DNA of 8,216 nucleotides, from positions 1 to 8,216 of the forward strand of contig CACXDK010000369.1 of NCBI GenBank assembly GCA_902766345.1, in the 5' to 3' direction. Source of the stretch: an uncultured Spirochaetaceae bacterium (GTDB taxonomy: Bacteria > Spirochaetota > Spirochaetia > Treponematales > Treponemataceae). The notes beneath the pieces are model-generated. The model had not been told where the DNA came from. It was given only the letters and a program-made list of their open reading frames with translations, and ran no database searches. Made by a program: the position numbers and the translations under genes. Positions 3,375-8,216 of this stretch are shown here, in pieces. Within the stretch, counting starts at the first letter, position 1; the number at the start of each line of letters is the position of its first letter.

Positions 3375-3437
3375 AATGTAATTTTTCAGACTGAAAACTG
3401 TCAAGTTTTCGTACCGTGTACTGTAATGTTTTAGGAC

Positions 3438-3470
3438 AAAAAAAGCCTAATGAAAGGGATTCATTAGGCT
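3438..3470 (-). terminator. intrinsic terminator, minus strand
   Basis: Arms AGCCTAATGAA (3444-3454) and TTCATTAGGCT (3460-3470) pair perfectly over 11 bp around the loop AGGGA. On the minus strand the stem is followed by T7 (3444-3438; the first T also closes the stem). It ends the small RNA and would also stop any read-through from the azlC-azlD-GNAT block. The plus-strand side has no T-tract, so it acts in one direction. Confidence 0.88.
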
Positions 3471-3481
3471 ACACTATAGGG

Positions 3482-3505
3482 AGCATAATCTAGCTAGATT
3501 ATGCT
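3482..3505. repeat. 24-bp perfect palindrome around repeat copy 1
   Basis: The 14-bp repeat copy 1 is extended to a perfect 24-bp inverted repeat (12-bp arms, AGCATAATCTAG and its complement). In RNA it makes a 10-bp hairpin with an AGCT loop. On the minus strand its 3' arm carries the first eight bases of the thiC-complementary segment, so pairing with thiC would have to open this hairpin from the adjacent single-stranded CCCTATAGT. Confidence 0.85.
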
Positions 3506-3567
3506 TTAAATCTAACTAGGATGTATTCATTAATCTAGCTAGGAAGAACATCCAATCTAGGTAGATT
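3487..3567. repeat. four 14-bp palindromic repeats at a 22-23 bp period
   Basis: Copies are at 3487-3500 (AATCTAGCTAGATT, a perfect dyad), 3509-3522 (AATCTAACTAGGAT), 3532-3545 (AATCTAGCTAGGAA) and 3554-3567 (AATCTAGGTAGATT). Starts are 22, 23 and 22 bp apart with 8-9 bp unrelated spacers, so all copies face nearly the same side of the helix. The region is very rich in CTAG, a tetramer that is scarce in many bacterial genomes. In RNA each copy is self-complementary, and copies can also pair with each other. It could equally be a set of protein-binding sites or iterons. Confidence 0.85.
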
Positions 3568-3596
3568 AAGATTTTATAAGCAGTTTTAAAATGAAC

Positions 3597-3632
3597 AAGA
3601 CCAGAATTAGCTTCTAGTCTTATTTTTTTATT
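3597..3632 (+). terminator. intrinsic terminator, plus strand
   Basis: AAGACCAGAA and TTCTAGTCTT pair over 10 bp (one G-T) around TTAGC at 3597-3621, followed on the plus strand by ATTTTTTTATT. It is the only good plus-strand terminator after the YjbR-like gene, about 230 nt past its stop. Operon transcripts reaching it would run antisense through the whole predicted small RNA. On the minus strand the same inverted repeat is the RNA's 5' hairpin. Confidence 0.65.
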
Positions 3633-3658
3633 ATAGCAGATTTTAGAAATTTTGTCAA
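3630..3658 (-). promoter_or_regulatory. consensus sigma-70 promoter for the small RNA
   Basis: On the minus strand TTGACA (3658-3653) is followed by exactly 17 bp and then TATAAT (3635-3630), a full match to both consensus hexamers. It begins 7 nt after the stop of the GNAT gene at 3666 and points into a gap with no gene on that strand until the terminator at 3438. The start is expected near 3622-3624, in the A-rich run. Confidence 0.8.
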
Positions 3659-3665
3659 AATTTTC

Positions 3666-4070
3666 TTATGTCAAATTCTTTATTAAATGGAACTTTTTAT
3701 TTCCTGTCGGAATGTCGTTAAGTTCTGCAATAATTTTATATCCGTGTTTTTTATAAAACTCTGGTGCCTGCCAACTCATTGTATCAACATGAACAGAATG
3801 GCATCCTCGTCGTACAGCTTCAGCTTCCGCAGCTTTCAACAATTTTGAGCCAATGCCACTTCTTCTACATTTTTCATCAACCCACAAAATATCCAGATGC
3901 ATCCAGCCCCAGTAAGTTCCACCAAGCAGCCCTGCAATTACATTTTTATTTTCATCATATTCAACAATGTTTAAAAGCTCATGATTATCAGGGCCAACAG
4001 CTTTGTTGTTAAATTCTTCCAACTTTAAATTTACAAAATCAATTTCTTTTTGTGACGGATTACAATTCAT
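3666..4070 (-). CDS. GNAT family N-acetyltransferase
   Basis: Predicted acetyl-CoA-dependent acyltransferase, 134 aa, a little short but complete for a single GNAT domain. Motif A is VDEKCRRSGIGSKLLKAAE (about 64-82) with the RRSGIG pyrophosphate loop; motif B is APEFYKKHGYKII (about 102-114). WGWMHLDILWV forms the strand before motif A. I use the ATG at 4070, 10 nt after the azlD stop. A longer reading from 4100 starts with TTG inside azlD and is less likely. No strong Shine-Dalgarno is visible, so translation may be coupled to azlD. The substrate is unknown; its place behind an amino-acid exporter suggests an amino acid or small amine, as inference only. Confidence 0.88.
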   Translation of the reverse strand: MNCNPSQKEIDFVNLKLEEFNNKAVGPDNHELLNIVEYDENKNVIAGLLGGTYWGWMHLDILWVDEKCRRSGIGSKLLKAAEAEAVRRGCHSVHVDTMSWQAPEFYKKHGYKIIAELNDIPTGNKKFHLIKNLT

Positions 4071-4080
4071 ATTTTCTATT

Positions 4081-4401
4081 CTATAAAATAAAATTAACAA
4101 TGACTACGTAGCAGACTGTTCCAGACAGAATGCTTAAGATTGTGTTTTTCTTCCACCAATGTGCAAGAACAATTACAAGAATGGAAACAATTTCCGGCAA
4201 GCCATGAACACCGCTCATAAAATCTACAGATTTCAGACAGAACACGACAAGCATCCCCATAATGGAATACGGCAACACTTTTCCAAGATACGCAATAAAG
4301 TCTGGCGTTTTTTTATTGCCACGAAAAGCTATGAACGGAAGAAAACGCAGCAAAGCTGTTACAACCGCCATTATTACTATATAGATAATTGCATTAATCA
4401 T
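4081..4401 (-). CDS. azlD: AzlD-family branched-chain amino acid transport subunit
   Basis: Small hydrophobic partner of AzlC in the inner membrane, together exporting branched-chain amino acids or analogues. It has 106 aa with four likely membrane segments (about 2-20, 38-57, 67-82, 88-105) and the family-typical LLRFLPFIAF near residue 17. It is full length for AzlD. The ATG overlaps the azlC end by 8 nt (ATGATTAA), and AGGAAGGA ends 9 nt upstream inside azlC, so the two are translationally coupled and made in step. The substrate is inferred from family only; AzlCD homologues also export azaleucine and other amino acids. Confidence 0.92.
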   Translation of the reverse strand: MINAIIYIVIMAVVTALLRFLPFIAFRGNKKTPDFIAYLGKVLPYSIMGMLVVFCLKSVDFMSGVHGLPEIVSILVIVLAHWWKKNTILSILSGTVCYVVIVNFIL

Positions 4402-5262: not shown

Positions 5263-5490
5263 CTAACTGTGATTCATTCTCTTTTCACAGCGGAACAAAC
5301 GTCTATTCATCTGATCATCCTTGTTATTTCTTGTTGATAATTTATGAGATGATACAGTTTCATTTCTGCACATCAGTGCATACAAAACAGGAATAAGCAC
5401 AAGCATTACAAAACCTACCATTGTCATTATAGAAACAGTCTGCCCACTCAAAAAATAAATCAAAAGGACACCAATAAACATAATTGCTCA
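5263..5490 (-). pseudogene. internally deleted C-terminal remnant of an RND efflux pump
   Basis: The 72 codons from 5481 begin IGVLLIYFLSGQTVSIMTM then VGFVMLV, the segment in AcrB-type (HAE1) pumps just before GIVVNNGIVLID. They then jump in frame to LIPVLYALMCRNE, the end of the last membrane helix. About 70-80 residues that normally lie between, and roughly 900 upstream, are missing. The same frame continues back through A-I directly to the TGA stop of the GNAT gene at 5488, so the fragment abuts that gene with no spacer. It ends in a charged tail (about residues 39-72). It has no Shine-Dalgarno and no sign of function; a small membrane protein cannot be excluded. Confidence 0.7.
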
Positions 5491-5968: not shown

Positions 5969-5997
5969 ATTATAACTTGCAAACTACAGAATATCAA
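5969..5997 (-). promoter_or_regulatory. sigma-70 promoter for the GNAT gene
   Basis: On the minus strand TTGATA (5997-5992) inside the last codons of thiC is followed by 17 bp and TATAAT (5974-5969). That is 11 of 12 consensus bases at ideal spacing. The predicted start near 5961 leaves a leader of about 20 nt with AAGGAA (5953-5948) in the right place. Confidence 0.7.
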
Positions 5998-7303
5998 TCA
6001 TTTCTCCGCTCAGTGCTTTGTTCATACTTCTTACGGCACAGAATTTTCCGCACATGCTGCACGTATCGCTGTGGTCATCTTCTGGTAGTCTTGAATCGCG
6101 AATCTGTTTTGCAGTTTCTGCATCCAAAGCACATTCAAACTGTTTTTCCCAGTCAAGATTCCTACGGGCATCTGCCATCCTATCGTCAATTTCTCGAGCA
6201 TACGGAATGCCTTTTGCAATGTCCGCAGCATGTGCTGCAATTTTTGATGCAATAATTCCCTGTCTAACATCATCAAGATTTGGCAATGCAAGATGCTCAG
6301 CTGGGGTTACATAACACAAAAATGCAGCTCCGTTTGCAGCAGCAACAGCACCACCAATTGCAGCAGTAATGTGATCATAACCAGGAGCAATATCTGTTAC
6401 CAAAGGACCAAGCACATAGAATGGAGCTCCAGAACAGATTGTCTTTTGAACTTCCATATTTGCCGCAATCTGATTTAACGGAACATGTCCAGGACCTTCA
6501 ACCATAACCTGCACATTATGAGCCCAAGCTCTTTTTGTAAGCTCACCAAGTCTGACTAATTCTTCAATCTGACAAACATCAGTTGCATCACTGAGACATC
6601 CTGGTCGGCAAGCATCTCCAAGTGAAATTGTAACATCATGCTTTTCGCAAATTTCAAGAATGTCATCGAAATACTCGTAAAAAGGATTTTCCTGTCCTGT
6701 CATTGTCATCCATGCAAAAACAAGACTTCCGCCCCTGCTGACAATATTCATTTTACGCTTATTATTTTTTATCTGCTCAATTGTTTTACGTGTAATTCCA
6801 CAATGAAGAGTTACAAAATCAACACCATCTTCTGCATGAAGACGCACAACATCAATAAAATCTTTGGCTGTCAAGGTACTTAAATCGCGCTGGTAATGAA
6901 TGACGGAATCGTAAACAGGAACAGTTCCAATCATGACAGGACATTCCTTTACAAGTTTCTGTCTGAACGGCTGAGTATTTCCATGACTGGAAAGATCCAT
7001 GATTGCATCAGCACCCAAGTCCACGGCACTCAATACTTTTTTCATTTCAAGGTCATAATCTTTACAGTCTCGCGAAATGCCAATATTTGCATTAATTTTA
7101 GTACGTAACATGCTACCCACACCTTCAGGTTTTAAGCAGGTATGTTTTTTATTGGCGCAAATAACAACCTTACCCTCAGCAACAAGTTTTCTGAGAGTTT
7201 CTTTGTTCATTTTCTCGCTTTCTGCAACTTTTTCAAGTTCTGGAGTAATAATACCTTTTCTTGCGGCATCCATTTGTGTTGTAAAATTTTTGTTTTCGTT
7301 CAT
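5984..7303 (-). CDS. thiC: phosphomethylpyrimidine synthase ThiC
   Basis: Radical-SAM enzyme that rearranges aminoimidazole ribotide to HMP phosphate, the pyrimidine half of thiamine. It has 439 aa, the short form without the long N-terminal extension of the 590-630 aa enzymes. Seen in order: [15 protein letters not shown] (61-75), [16 protein letters not shown] (95-110), FVTLHCG (163-169), SRGGSL (189-194), [10 protein letters not shown] (227-236), [12 protein letters not shown] (268-279) with metal-ligand His273, APGYDHI (306-312), and the [4Fe-4S] motif near the end, Cys415, Cys418 and Cys422. The cluster motif here is C-X2-C-X3-C, one residue shorter than the common C-X2-C-X4-C. AGGGAG 6 nt before the ATG fixes the start. 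It follows thiD by 24 nt. A benzimidazole synthase paralogue (BzaF type) is possible but unlikely beside thiE and thiD. Confidence 0.95.
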
Positions 7304-7320
7304 ATTATGCTCCCTATAAT
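7304..7320 (-). promoter_or_regulatory. thiC ribosome-binding site, complementary to the small RNA
   Basis: On the minus strand the bases before AUG read ATTATAGGGAGCATAAT. The Shine-Dalgarno AGGGAG is at 7315-7310. TATAGGGAGCATAAT (7318-7304) is identical to plus-strand 3475-3489, so an RNA made from the minus strand there would pair with it base for base. The site can also fold weakly on itself (ATTAT with ATAAT, Shine-Dalgarno in the loop). Confidence 0.7.
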
Positions 7321-7327
7321 TTTTAAC

Positions 7328-8131
7328 CTACTCAGTTTGTAAATTCCATAAATGATTTAAAGGTCCAGAACCTTTTCCTAAGTCAAGCATTGCTTTTAAT
7401 GCACCGTTGATATATTCCTTTGCACAATGAATTGAATCTTCAAGAGATTTTTCCAAAGCAAGATTGGCACAGATTGCACTTGAAAGAGTGCAACCTGTAC
7501 CATGAGTGTTAGGATTATTTATTTTCTCAGCTTTGAACCATACACCATTCTTTCCATTAAAAAAGAAATCGCAAGAATCAGATGTGCAATGGCCACCTTT
7601 TAAAAGAACATTGCTTCCAGATTGCTCATAAATTTTCAAAGCAGCCTGTTCCATGTCTTTTTTATTGCAAACGTTCAAGCCCGAAAGAACTTCTGCTTCG
7701 GGAATATTTGGAGTAATCAAACTTGCAAGAGGAAAAAGTTTTTTCTGCAAGATAGAGATTGCGTCTGCATTAAGAAGTCTTGAACCGCTTGTAGAAATCA
7801 TAACAGGGTCTAAAACAATATTTTTTGCCTCATAAAATTTCAAACGGTCTGCAATGACTTCTATGATGGACGCAGAACTTGTCATGCCTATTTTTACAGC
7901 ATTGGGGGGTATATCCTTAAAAACTGCATCCATCTGTTTTTGAATAATGTCATCAGACACATTCTGAATGCCGTAGACACCGCAAGTATTCTGTGCCGTT
8001 ACAGCTGTAATAACAGACATGCCGTAAATTCCAAATGCCGAAAAAGTTTTTATATCTGCCTGAATTCCAGCACCTCCGCTGGAATCGCTTCCAGCAATTG
8101 TAAGTGCAGTTTTCACTGAGCCGTTAAGCAT
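7328..8131 (-). CDS. thiD: bifunctional hydroxymethylpyrimidine kinase/HMP-phosphate kinase ThiD
   Basis: Phosphorylates HMP and HMP phosphate to HMP diphosphate, the step between ThiC and ThiE; ribokinase fold, cytoplasmic. It has 267 aa, about the same as the E. coli enzyme. Motifs are LTIAGSDSSGGAGIQADIK (10-28), TAVTAQNT (42-49), VLDPVMISTSG (107-116), ITPNIPEAEVLSG (139-151), LLKGGH (176-181), and NTHGTGCTLSSAI (208-220) with the GTGC anion hole and Cys214. The end, GKGSGPLNHLW, is typical. I choose the ATG at 8131, which overlaps the thiE stop by 8 nt (ATGCTTAA) with a GGTGGGG tract 10 nt upstream; a TTG one codon earlier and a GTG at 8116 are weaker. Expression is coupled to thiE. Confidence 0.95.
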   Translation of the reverse strand: MLNGSVKTALTIAGSDSSGGAGIQADIKTFSAFGIYGMSVITAVTAQNTCGVYGIQNVSDDIIQKQMDAVFKDIPPNAVKIGMTSSASIIEVIADRLKFYEAKNIVLDPVMISTSGSRLLNADAISILQKKLFPLASLITPNIPEAEVLSGLNVCNKKDMEQAALKIYEQSGSNVLLKGGHCTSDSCDFFFNGKNGVWFKAEKINNPNTHGTGCTLSSAICANLALEKSLEDSIHCAKEYINGALKAMLDLGKGSGPLNHLWNLQTE

Positions 8132-8216
8132 CAAGAATATTCCCCACCTTCACACGAAGTTCTTTTGAAGCATTCGTTATGTCCTTCTGGGCAAATATTG
8201 CAGTAATTACCGCAAT
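8124..8216 (-). CDS. thiE: thiamine-phosphate synthase ThiE (C-terminal 30 residues)
   Basis: The frame is open to the window edge and ends IAVITAIFAQKDITNASKEL, RVKVGNILDA, stop. The pattern (G)-IAVITAIFAQKDI matches the last strand and helix of ThiE, the TIM-barrel enzyme that joins HMP diphosphate to the thiazole phosphate; the family usually has a V-S-A-I motif there. Its place directly before thiD supports the call. Only the tail is visible, so catalytic residues cannot be checked. A ThiE fused to another thiamine enzyme upstream cannot be ruled out. Confidence 0.75.
   Translation of the reverse strand: MAVITAIFAQKDITNASKELRVKVGNILDA

Follow-up and report, generated by a model that had tools for sequence, protein, structure and literature searches.

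The small RNA gene on the minus strand of the window (the whole 8,216-nt stretch analysed, contig CACXDK010000369.1 of an uncultured Spirochaetaceae bacterium) is, judged by its sequence, a copy of a dispersed, multi-copy Treponema family without a match in Rfam 15, and the role of this family is most likely linked to a DNA-binding, HU-like protein that carries an Ig-like DUF4469 domain. The 15-nt complementarity between the RNA and the ribosome-binding site of thiC, from which a preliminary description had proposed repression of thiC translation in trans or sponging of the RNA by thiC mRNA, is probably a lineage-specific coincidence and not a selected contact. The account favoured here, with a little better than an even chance of being right, is a stand-alone Treponema family RNA whose units are HU-DUF4469 sites and whose match to thiC is coincidental. 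The features of the window are given in Table 1.

Table 1 Features of the RNA locus and the thi genes in the window
Feature	Position	Strand	Remarks
Small RNA, ~188 nt	3436..3623	minus	Ends predicted from promoter and terminator; homologues found in relatives
Promoter, TTGACA-17-TATAAT, extended -10	3630..3658	minus	Sigma-70-type, 12/12 consensus positions
5' hairpin	3594..3624	minus	Covariation; at predicted RNA start
Four direct-repeat units	3486..3564	minus	CTAGNTAG-like cores, mostly palindromic; spacing 22, 23, 22 nt
AUUAUGCUCCCUAUA	3475..3489	minus	3' arm of last unit and C-rich stretch; complementary to thiC ribosome site
Intrinsic terminator	3438..3470	minus	Stem 3470-3444, AUCCC loop, then T run
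GNAT acetyltransferase gene	3666..4100	minus	Directly upstream of RNA promoter
thiC	5984..7303	minus	PF01964, 646 bits; ATG at 7303
thiC ribosome-binding region, TATAGGGAGCATAAT	7304..7318	minus	Equals plus strand 3475-3489
thiD	7328..8134	minus	PF08543; upstream of thiC, co-directional

The RNA gene of the window is well supported by its predicted promoter, hairpins, repeat units and terminator, and the fold of positions 3640-3430 (211 nt) gave a z score of -6.0 against shuffled sequences. This agrees with the preliminary description, which had placed on this strand a small RNA whose C-rich stretch lies free between a pair of hairpins. The 5' hairpin covaries strongly: 9 of its 13 pairs were changed on both sides among 11 sequences with 90 % of cells paired, none of 500 shuffles scored as high, and slid versions of the hairpin scored far lower (11 of 14 sequences were counted; L206, L209 and L217 were omitted because MAFFT had misplaced them). 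The hairpin of the last unit, in which some of the letters complementary to thiC lie, was rejected as a conserved RNA structure: 81 % of its cells were paired, but its score was reached by 36 of 500 shuffles. Covariation so little above that of shuffles indicates that the primary sequence is what is conserved there, and that the units may act as DNA. The pairing of unit 3 with unit 4 preferred by RNAalifold was also set aside, being without two-sided changes.

The family was surveyed in 200 genomes from the genus group of L004, an uncultured Treponema met in the ThiC scan. A BLAST search with the window RNA gave a near full-length homologue in G143 (82 % identity), three copies in G194 and partial matches elsewhere; at E ≤ 0.05 a match was obtained in 91 genomes, most of the weakest of these matches probably being due to chance. 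A covariance model (R1, E ≤ 1e-3) matched in 24 of the 200 genomes. Relatives carry several RNA copies per genome, and the distinct places, counted after opposite-strand duplicates had been removed by hand, numbered 11 in G168 (weak), 9 in G074, 7 each in G073, G131, G180 and G186, and 5 in G194. The large genus and phylum searches used stricter filters, under which weak matches are lost; at E ≤ 1e-4 the 296 genomes of the phylum sample yielded four with matches, of which three had turned up in the genus search and one (G416) was weak. Phages and plasmids, when searched, gave no match, and viral contigs contained neither the GNAT gene nor the one exact 31-nt pattern used as a query. The best Rfam 15 scores in the window (25.4 and 24.4 bits) were both below threshold, and a scan of 18 relatives' loci, with L117, L123 and L205-L224 outside it, found one tRNA only. 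The sub-threshold matches to Qrr and U12 in the window were judged to be chance; that to Qrr (RF00378) is weak, covers 3515-3436 with its best part at the terminator, scores 24.4 bits (E 0.51) against a gathering score of 50, and is not taken as homology. No report of the RNA family or of a DUF4469-linked array was found in the titles and abstract openings of a limited open-access literature.

Forty-one copies were read, comprising that of the window and 40 from relatives picked from the better matches, and 19 of 21 sequences were used in alignment A1 (L116 and L117, which have fewer units, were omitted). Most copies share one anatomy, in which a promoter and a 5' hairpin are followed by two to four units of 22-23 nt with the core TANNTAGATT and then by CCC. 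A promoter-like pair with exact 17-nt spacing and a score of at least 9 was present in 34 of the 41 copies, compared with a mean of 6.6 and a maximum of 10 in 50 shuffles; at a score of at least 11 the numbers were 24 of 41 and 0.2. By the same scoring no such pair was found in L130, L133, L208, L215, L216, L218 or L221, and that of L220 was weak. Counted on the assumption of four units, the distance from the -10 element to unit 1 was 61-68 nt in 19 copies, 75-78 nt in 10 and 84-86 nt in two, and it was shorter in L223 and in the two copies with fewer units, L116 and L117. Of the 41 copies, 36 had CCC right behind their last unit (35 by script and the window by eye). What follows is a terminator in the window and in G143 and, by eye, a C-rich array of similar period in many others. 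In L120, L122, L127, L218, L224 and others, a second tandem array of ~22-23 nt, with CCC in most units, was seen behind the last CTAG unit. The 17-nt-spaced promoter-like pairs, taken together with the strongly covarying 5' hairpin, suggest that transcription matters.

Family copies are dispersed between differing genes and lie in either orientation. In type III toxin-antitoxin repeat RNAs such as ToxI, a promoter precedes short tandem repeats, behind which a terminator often lies. Unlike RNAs of that type, the 40 relatives' copies examined have no constant gene behind the repeats, and a constant, toxin-like downstream gene was ruled out, as both neighbours and orientations differ among them. 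In L121 (G074) and L131 (G131) the array directly precedes related genes for 997-aa proteins, which by eye are perhaps a restriction-modification enzyme.

Several further observations were made on the genes of the window. The real start of the GNAT gene is probably an ATG later than that at 4100, and the named relatives near the top of its matches are from Treponema sp., which makes the organism of the window probably a Treponema. A 72-aa frame at 5263-5481 (minus strand) resembles, by eye, the C terminus of an efflux protein of the RND type and is possibly a gene remnant. The ThiC of the window is 75-91 % identical to most of its Treponema relatives and 83-85 % identical to proteins of several Lachnospiraceae and other Clostridia; the closeness of these two ranges is a hint of transfer among bacteria of the gut. 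The Rfam scan gave no match to a TPP riboswitch inside the window.

The match to thiC is itself exact and unusually long. The 15 letters TATAGGGAGCATAAT occur at 3475-3489 of the plus strand and at 7318-7304 of the minus strand, the next two pairs read from the sequence are G-U and U-A, and the thiC-side site stops at the base preceding the ATG. No other inverted match of 15 nt exists in the window; of the three 14-mers found there, two are inside the 15-mer. In controls picked after the match was already known, none of 2000 shuffled RNAs reached at least 15 pairs across the 10 start regions of the window (two of 2000 reached 14 pairs), and the longest run in 541 mechanically predicted start regions of related genomes was 11. 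The RNA site is accessible, in line with the preliminary description, with an opening cost of ~2.6 kcal/mol for the 17-nt site and ~2.0 kcal/mol for CUCCCUAUAGU. The preliminary description was therefore right that the match is unusually long and falls precisely on the thiC ribosome site. By energy thiC is good but does not stand alone: its duplex (-33.9 kcal/mol) was equalled or bettered in 8 of the 541 background starts, several of which are clearly richer in G+C.

The comparison of both sites in relatives, by which the preliminary description had proposed to judge a regulatory contact, speaks against such a contact. The letters opposite thiC, GATTATGCTCCC, are the family consensus of the conserved 3' part (last unit and CUCCC), and they or variants with few changes were present in seven genomes (G019, G074, G180, G186, G073, G131 and G059) in which no thiC was found at E ≤ 1e-100. 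At that threshold thiC was found in 33 of the 200 genomes, six of which also carry the RNA (G017, G020, G052, G129, G136 and G143). Of these, G143 is the only one in which the RNA was found close to a GNAT relative, which is the arrangement of the window (76 % identity, ~0.9 kb upstream of the RNA, on the same contig and strand). G143 thus keeps both loci, with an RNA 82 % and a thiC 90 % identical to those of the window, and the complementarity is gone: the RNA segment is GATTGCGATCCCGATACC, the thiC leader is GTACAGGGGTAATAATATG, and the longest pairing is 5 nt. The longest pairings were 9 and 7 nt in G017 and 5 nt in G020, and on inspection the site was absent from the thiC leaders of G052, G129 and G136 (pairing was scored in G143, G017 and G020). 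In 30 Treponema thiC loci TATAGGGAGCATAAT did not occur, and 24 of the 30 leaders were also inspected by eye. Since the segment is family-wide and the pairing is missing in the relatives checked, the match to thiC is probably coincidental.

A wider set of targets was looked for with the strict 12-mer AGGGAGYATAAT, of which 106 rows were counted by hand across the genus. It occurred 15 times in the 24 RNA-bearing genomes, five of these occurrences lying in arrays (four at model matches and one by eye). The 10 outside arrays correspond to 0.42 per genome, compared with 91 in the 176 other genomes (0.52 per genome). The reversed control pattern was found seven times in the RNA-bearing genomes and 45 times in all 200 (hand sum), so that the 12-mer outnumbers its control over the genus as a whole, but to no greater degree where the RNA is present. 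It preceded a frame of at least 100 aa in 2 of 10 cases in RNA-bearing genomes and in 6 of 29 examined in RNA-free genomes. With no excess in either count, this strict test gave no sign of a target set.

Evidence on the role of the family comes from the genes that accompany it. For 5 of the 41 copies, the gene that comes next on their strand codes for a protein combining the Ig-like DUF4469 with an HU-DNA_bdg or HU-HIG region, three of the five being recognised by Pfam (one with an HU match below the curated cut-off) and two as BLAST relatives; three HU proteins received no name from NCBIfam. A search with one HU-DUF4469 protein at E ≤ 1e-30 found this clade in 8 of the 200 genomes, and all eight carry the RNA (hypergeometric 1.3e-8, kinship uncorrected). 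An array lies directly upstream of the HU gene in seven of the eight (G017, G195, G136, G186, G146, G131 and G155); G143 has none upstream of its HU gene, and a second, weaker HU gene in G136 has no confirmed array, the frame examined there possibly being another gene. The clade was absent at E ≤ 1e-30 from 16 of the 24 RNA-bearing genomes, which argues against a strict one-to-one partnership. DUF4469 in general was present in 23 of the 24 RNA-bearing genomes (G152 being the exception) and in 96 of 200 overall (Fisher 1.8e-7). Because of the kinship among the genomes and the fragmented state of many of them, these p values overstate independence and the absences are uncertain.

Arrays of 22/23-nt period were also enriched beside HU-DUF4469 genes beyond the RNA family. 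Thirteen were found in 94 kb (30 loci from a domain search), compared with one, A+T-rich, in a 400 kb control, for which stretches were placed arbitrarily in 13 of the 30 genomes that hold the loci; about 10 of the 13 are independent, as L227-L229 and L232-L233 are near-copies. Periodic stretches of other periods numbered nine in the control and one in the HU loci, and the 22/23-nt period was found in none of 30 thiC and 12 YjbR loci. Judged by coordinates, the array comes just 3' of the domain in 12 cases and on its 5' side in one (L253), and 11 of the 13 fold better than mononucleotide shuffles (z of -3.2 or lower). The adjoining units, seen at L225-L229, L232-L235, L242, L244, L246 and L253, are tandem and mostly palindromic, and their sequence differs between most of the arrays. 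Other HU-DUF4469 paralogues thus carry differing arrays of the same 22/23-nt period, and each paralogue may have its own cognate array. The association of RNA and HU protein described here is one of genetic linkage and co-occurrence.

In the favoured account of a stand-alone family RNA, a strong promoter would yield an RNA of ~188 nt bearing a 5' hairpin, then four units, each of 22-23 nt and with a palindromic, CTAG-like core, and lastly a C-rich motif and a terminator. The evenly spaced palindromic units would be putative binding sites for the HU-DUF4469 protein, as DNA or as RNA. A copy before the HU gene could provide autoregulation, and the dispersed copies could serve as a nucleoid or regulatory RNA/DNA element, acting on the nucleoid or on expression. 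A broader proposal, that these elements make up a new Treponema RNA-protein (or DNA array-protein) system in which an HU-Ig (DUF4469) clade has its own 22-nt palindromic arrays, dedicated promoters and dispersed multi-copy RNAs, one copy being the leader of the protein gene, is put forward tentatively and with less than even confidence.

Three other explanations were weighed. An RNA-thiC contact that works, or that represses thiC, is improbable, and the form of it considered most closely, also unlikely, is a C-rich anti-Shine-Dalgarno RNA resembling LhrC of Listeria, whose free CUCCC would meet the GGGAG of thiC, whereupon the last hairpin would open and a duplex of 15-17 bp would block translation, thiC being a recent target among others. 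The available text on LhrC (PMC4132741) describes a multi-copy RNA with CUCCC-type motifs in a loop, a free stretch and the terminator loop, which binds the GGGAG of lapB. The Treponema RNA resembles LhrC, as there described, in being multi-copy, in having CUCCC free between hairpins and in its possible GGGAG partner before a start codon; it differs from that description in its palindromic 22-nt units, its HU linkage and the finding of no conserved target pairing. The 15 pairs ending before the AUG, more than any shuffled RNA gave at the start sites of the window, the accessible RNA site, the CCC behind the last unit of most copies, its recurrence in the window's terminator loop, and the further CCC units of many copies are all in keeping with such an RNA, but the CCC of the terminator loop is lost in G143, the pairing is absent in the three relatives scored, the 12-mer shows no excess, and several background starts pair with equal or better energy. 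A recently acquired target in the lineage of the window alone is possible: E. coli RNAs are older than the known binding sites on their targets, according to the part of PMC4114697 available, and with new targets of old RNAs thus on record, the loss in relatives is compatible with a contact here.

A purely DNA-level explanation, rather unlikely in our estimation, takes the units, which lie about two turns of the helix apart, as operators of an HU-DUF4469 dimer, the transcript being incidental. It accommodates the palindromic cores, the strict spacing of 22-23 nt, the linkage to HU-domain protein genes and the near-background covariation of the last-unit hairpin, yet it leaves aside both the 17-nt-spaced promoter-like pairs, present in many more copies than expected, and the 5' RNA hairpin with its strong covariation, and most family copies read have no adjoining HU gene. 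That the element is a selfish or mobile repeat (MITE- or REP-like), carrying a promoter and spread between genes, seems quite unlikely. Dispersal among different genes in either orientation, several copies per genome and the variable number of units are what such a repeat would give; the covarying hairpin and common anatomy across diverged copies, and the fact that the window and G143 each have a copy close to a GNAT gene, argue against it.

The nearest known case is naRNA4, which according to the accessible portion of a review (PMC6907758) is encoded in E. coli REP325 and connects DNA segments together with HU; the comparison is one of likeness and not of membership, and a nucleoid role for the Treponema family is putative. 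As far as that portion goes, the two have in common an extragenic palindromic repeat, here a candidate RNA, and a connection with an HU-type protein, here one of gene linkage and co-occurrence. The Treponema family differs from naRNA4, as there described, in that it has a strong promoter of its own, that its 22-nt units are ordered, that its 5' hairpin covaries and that its candidate partner is an HU-DUF4469 protein with a linked gene.

The thiC match illustrates that a striking antisense match can arise from family sequence that persists even where the target is missing, and the RNA family itself, travelling with the gene of a histone-like (HU) protein, is more interesting than that match. 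A candidate protein partner is now at hand for an RNA family without a match in Rfam 15. Should such arrays prove to be bound by HU-DUF4469 proteins, a direct test of what this little-described branch of HU proteins does would become possible, and the Treponema family, if this is true, would be a second HU-linked repeat RNA besides naRNA4.
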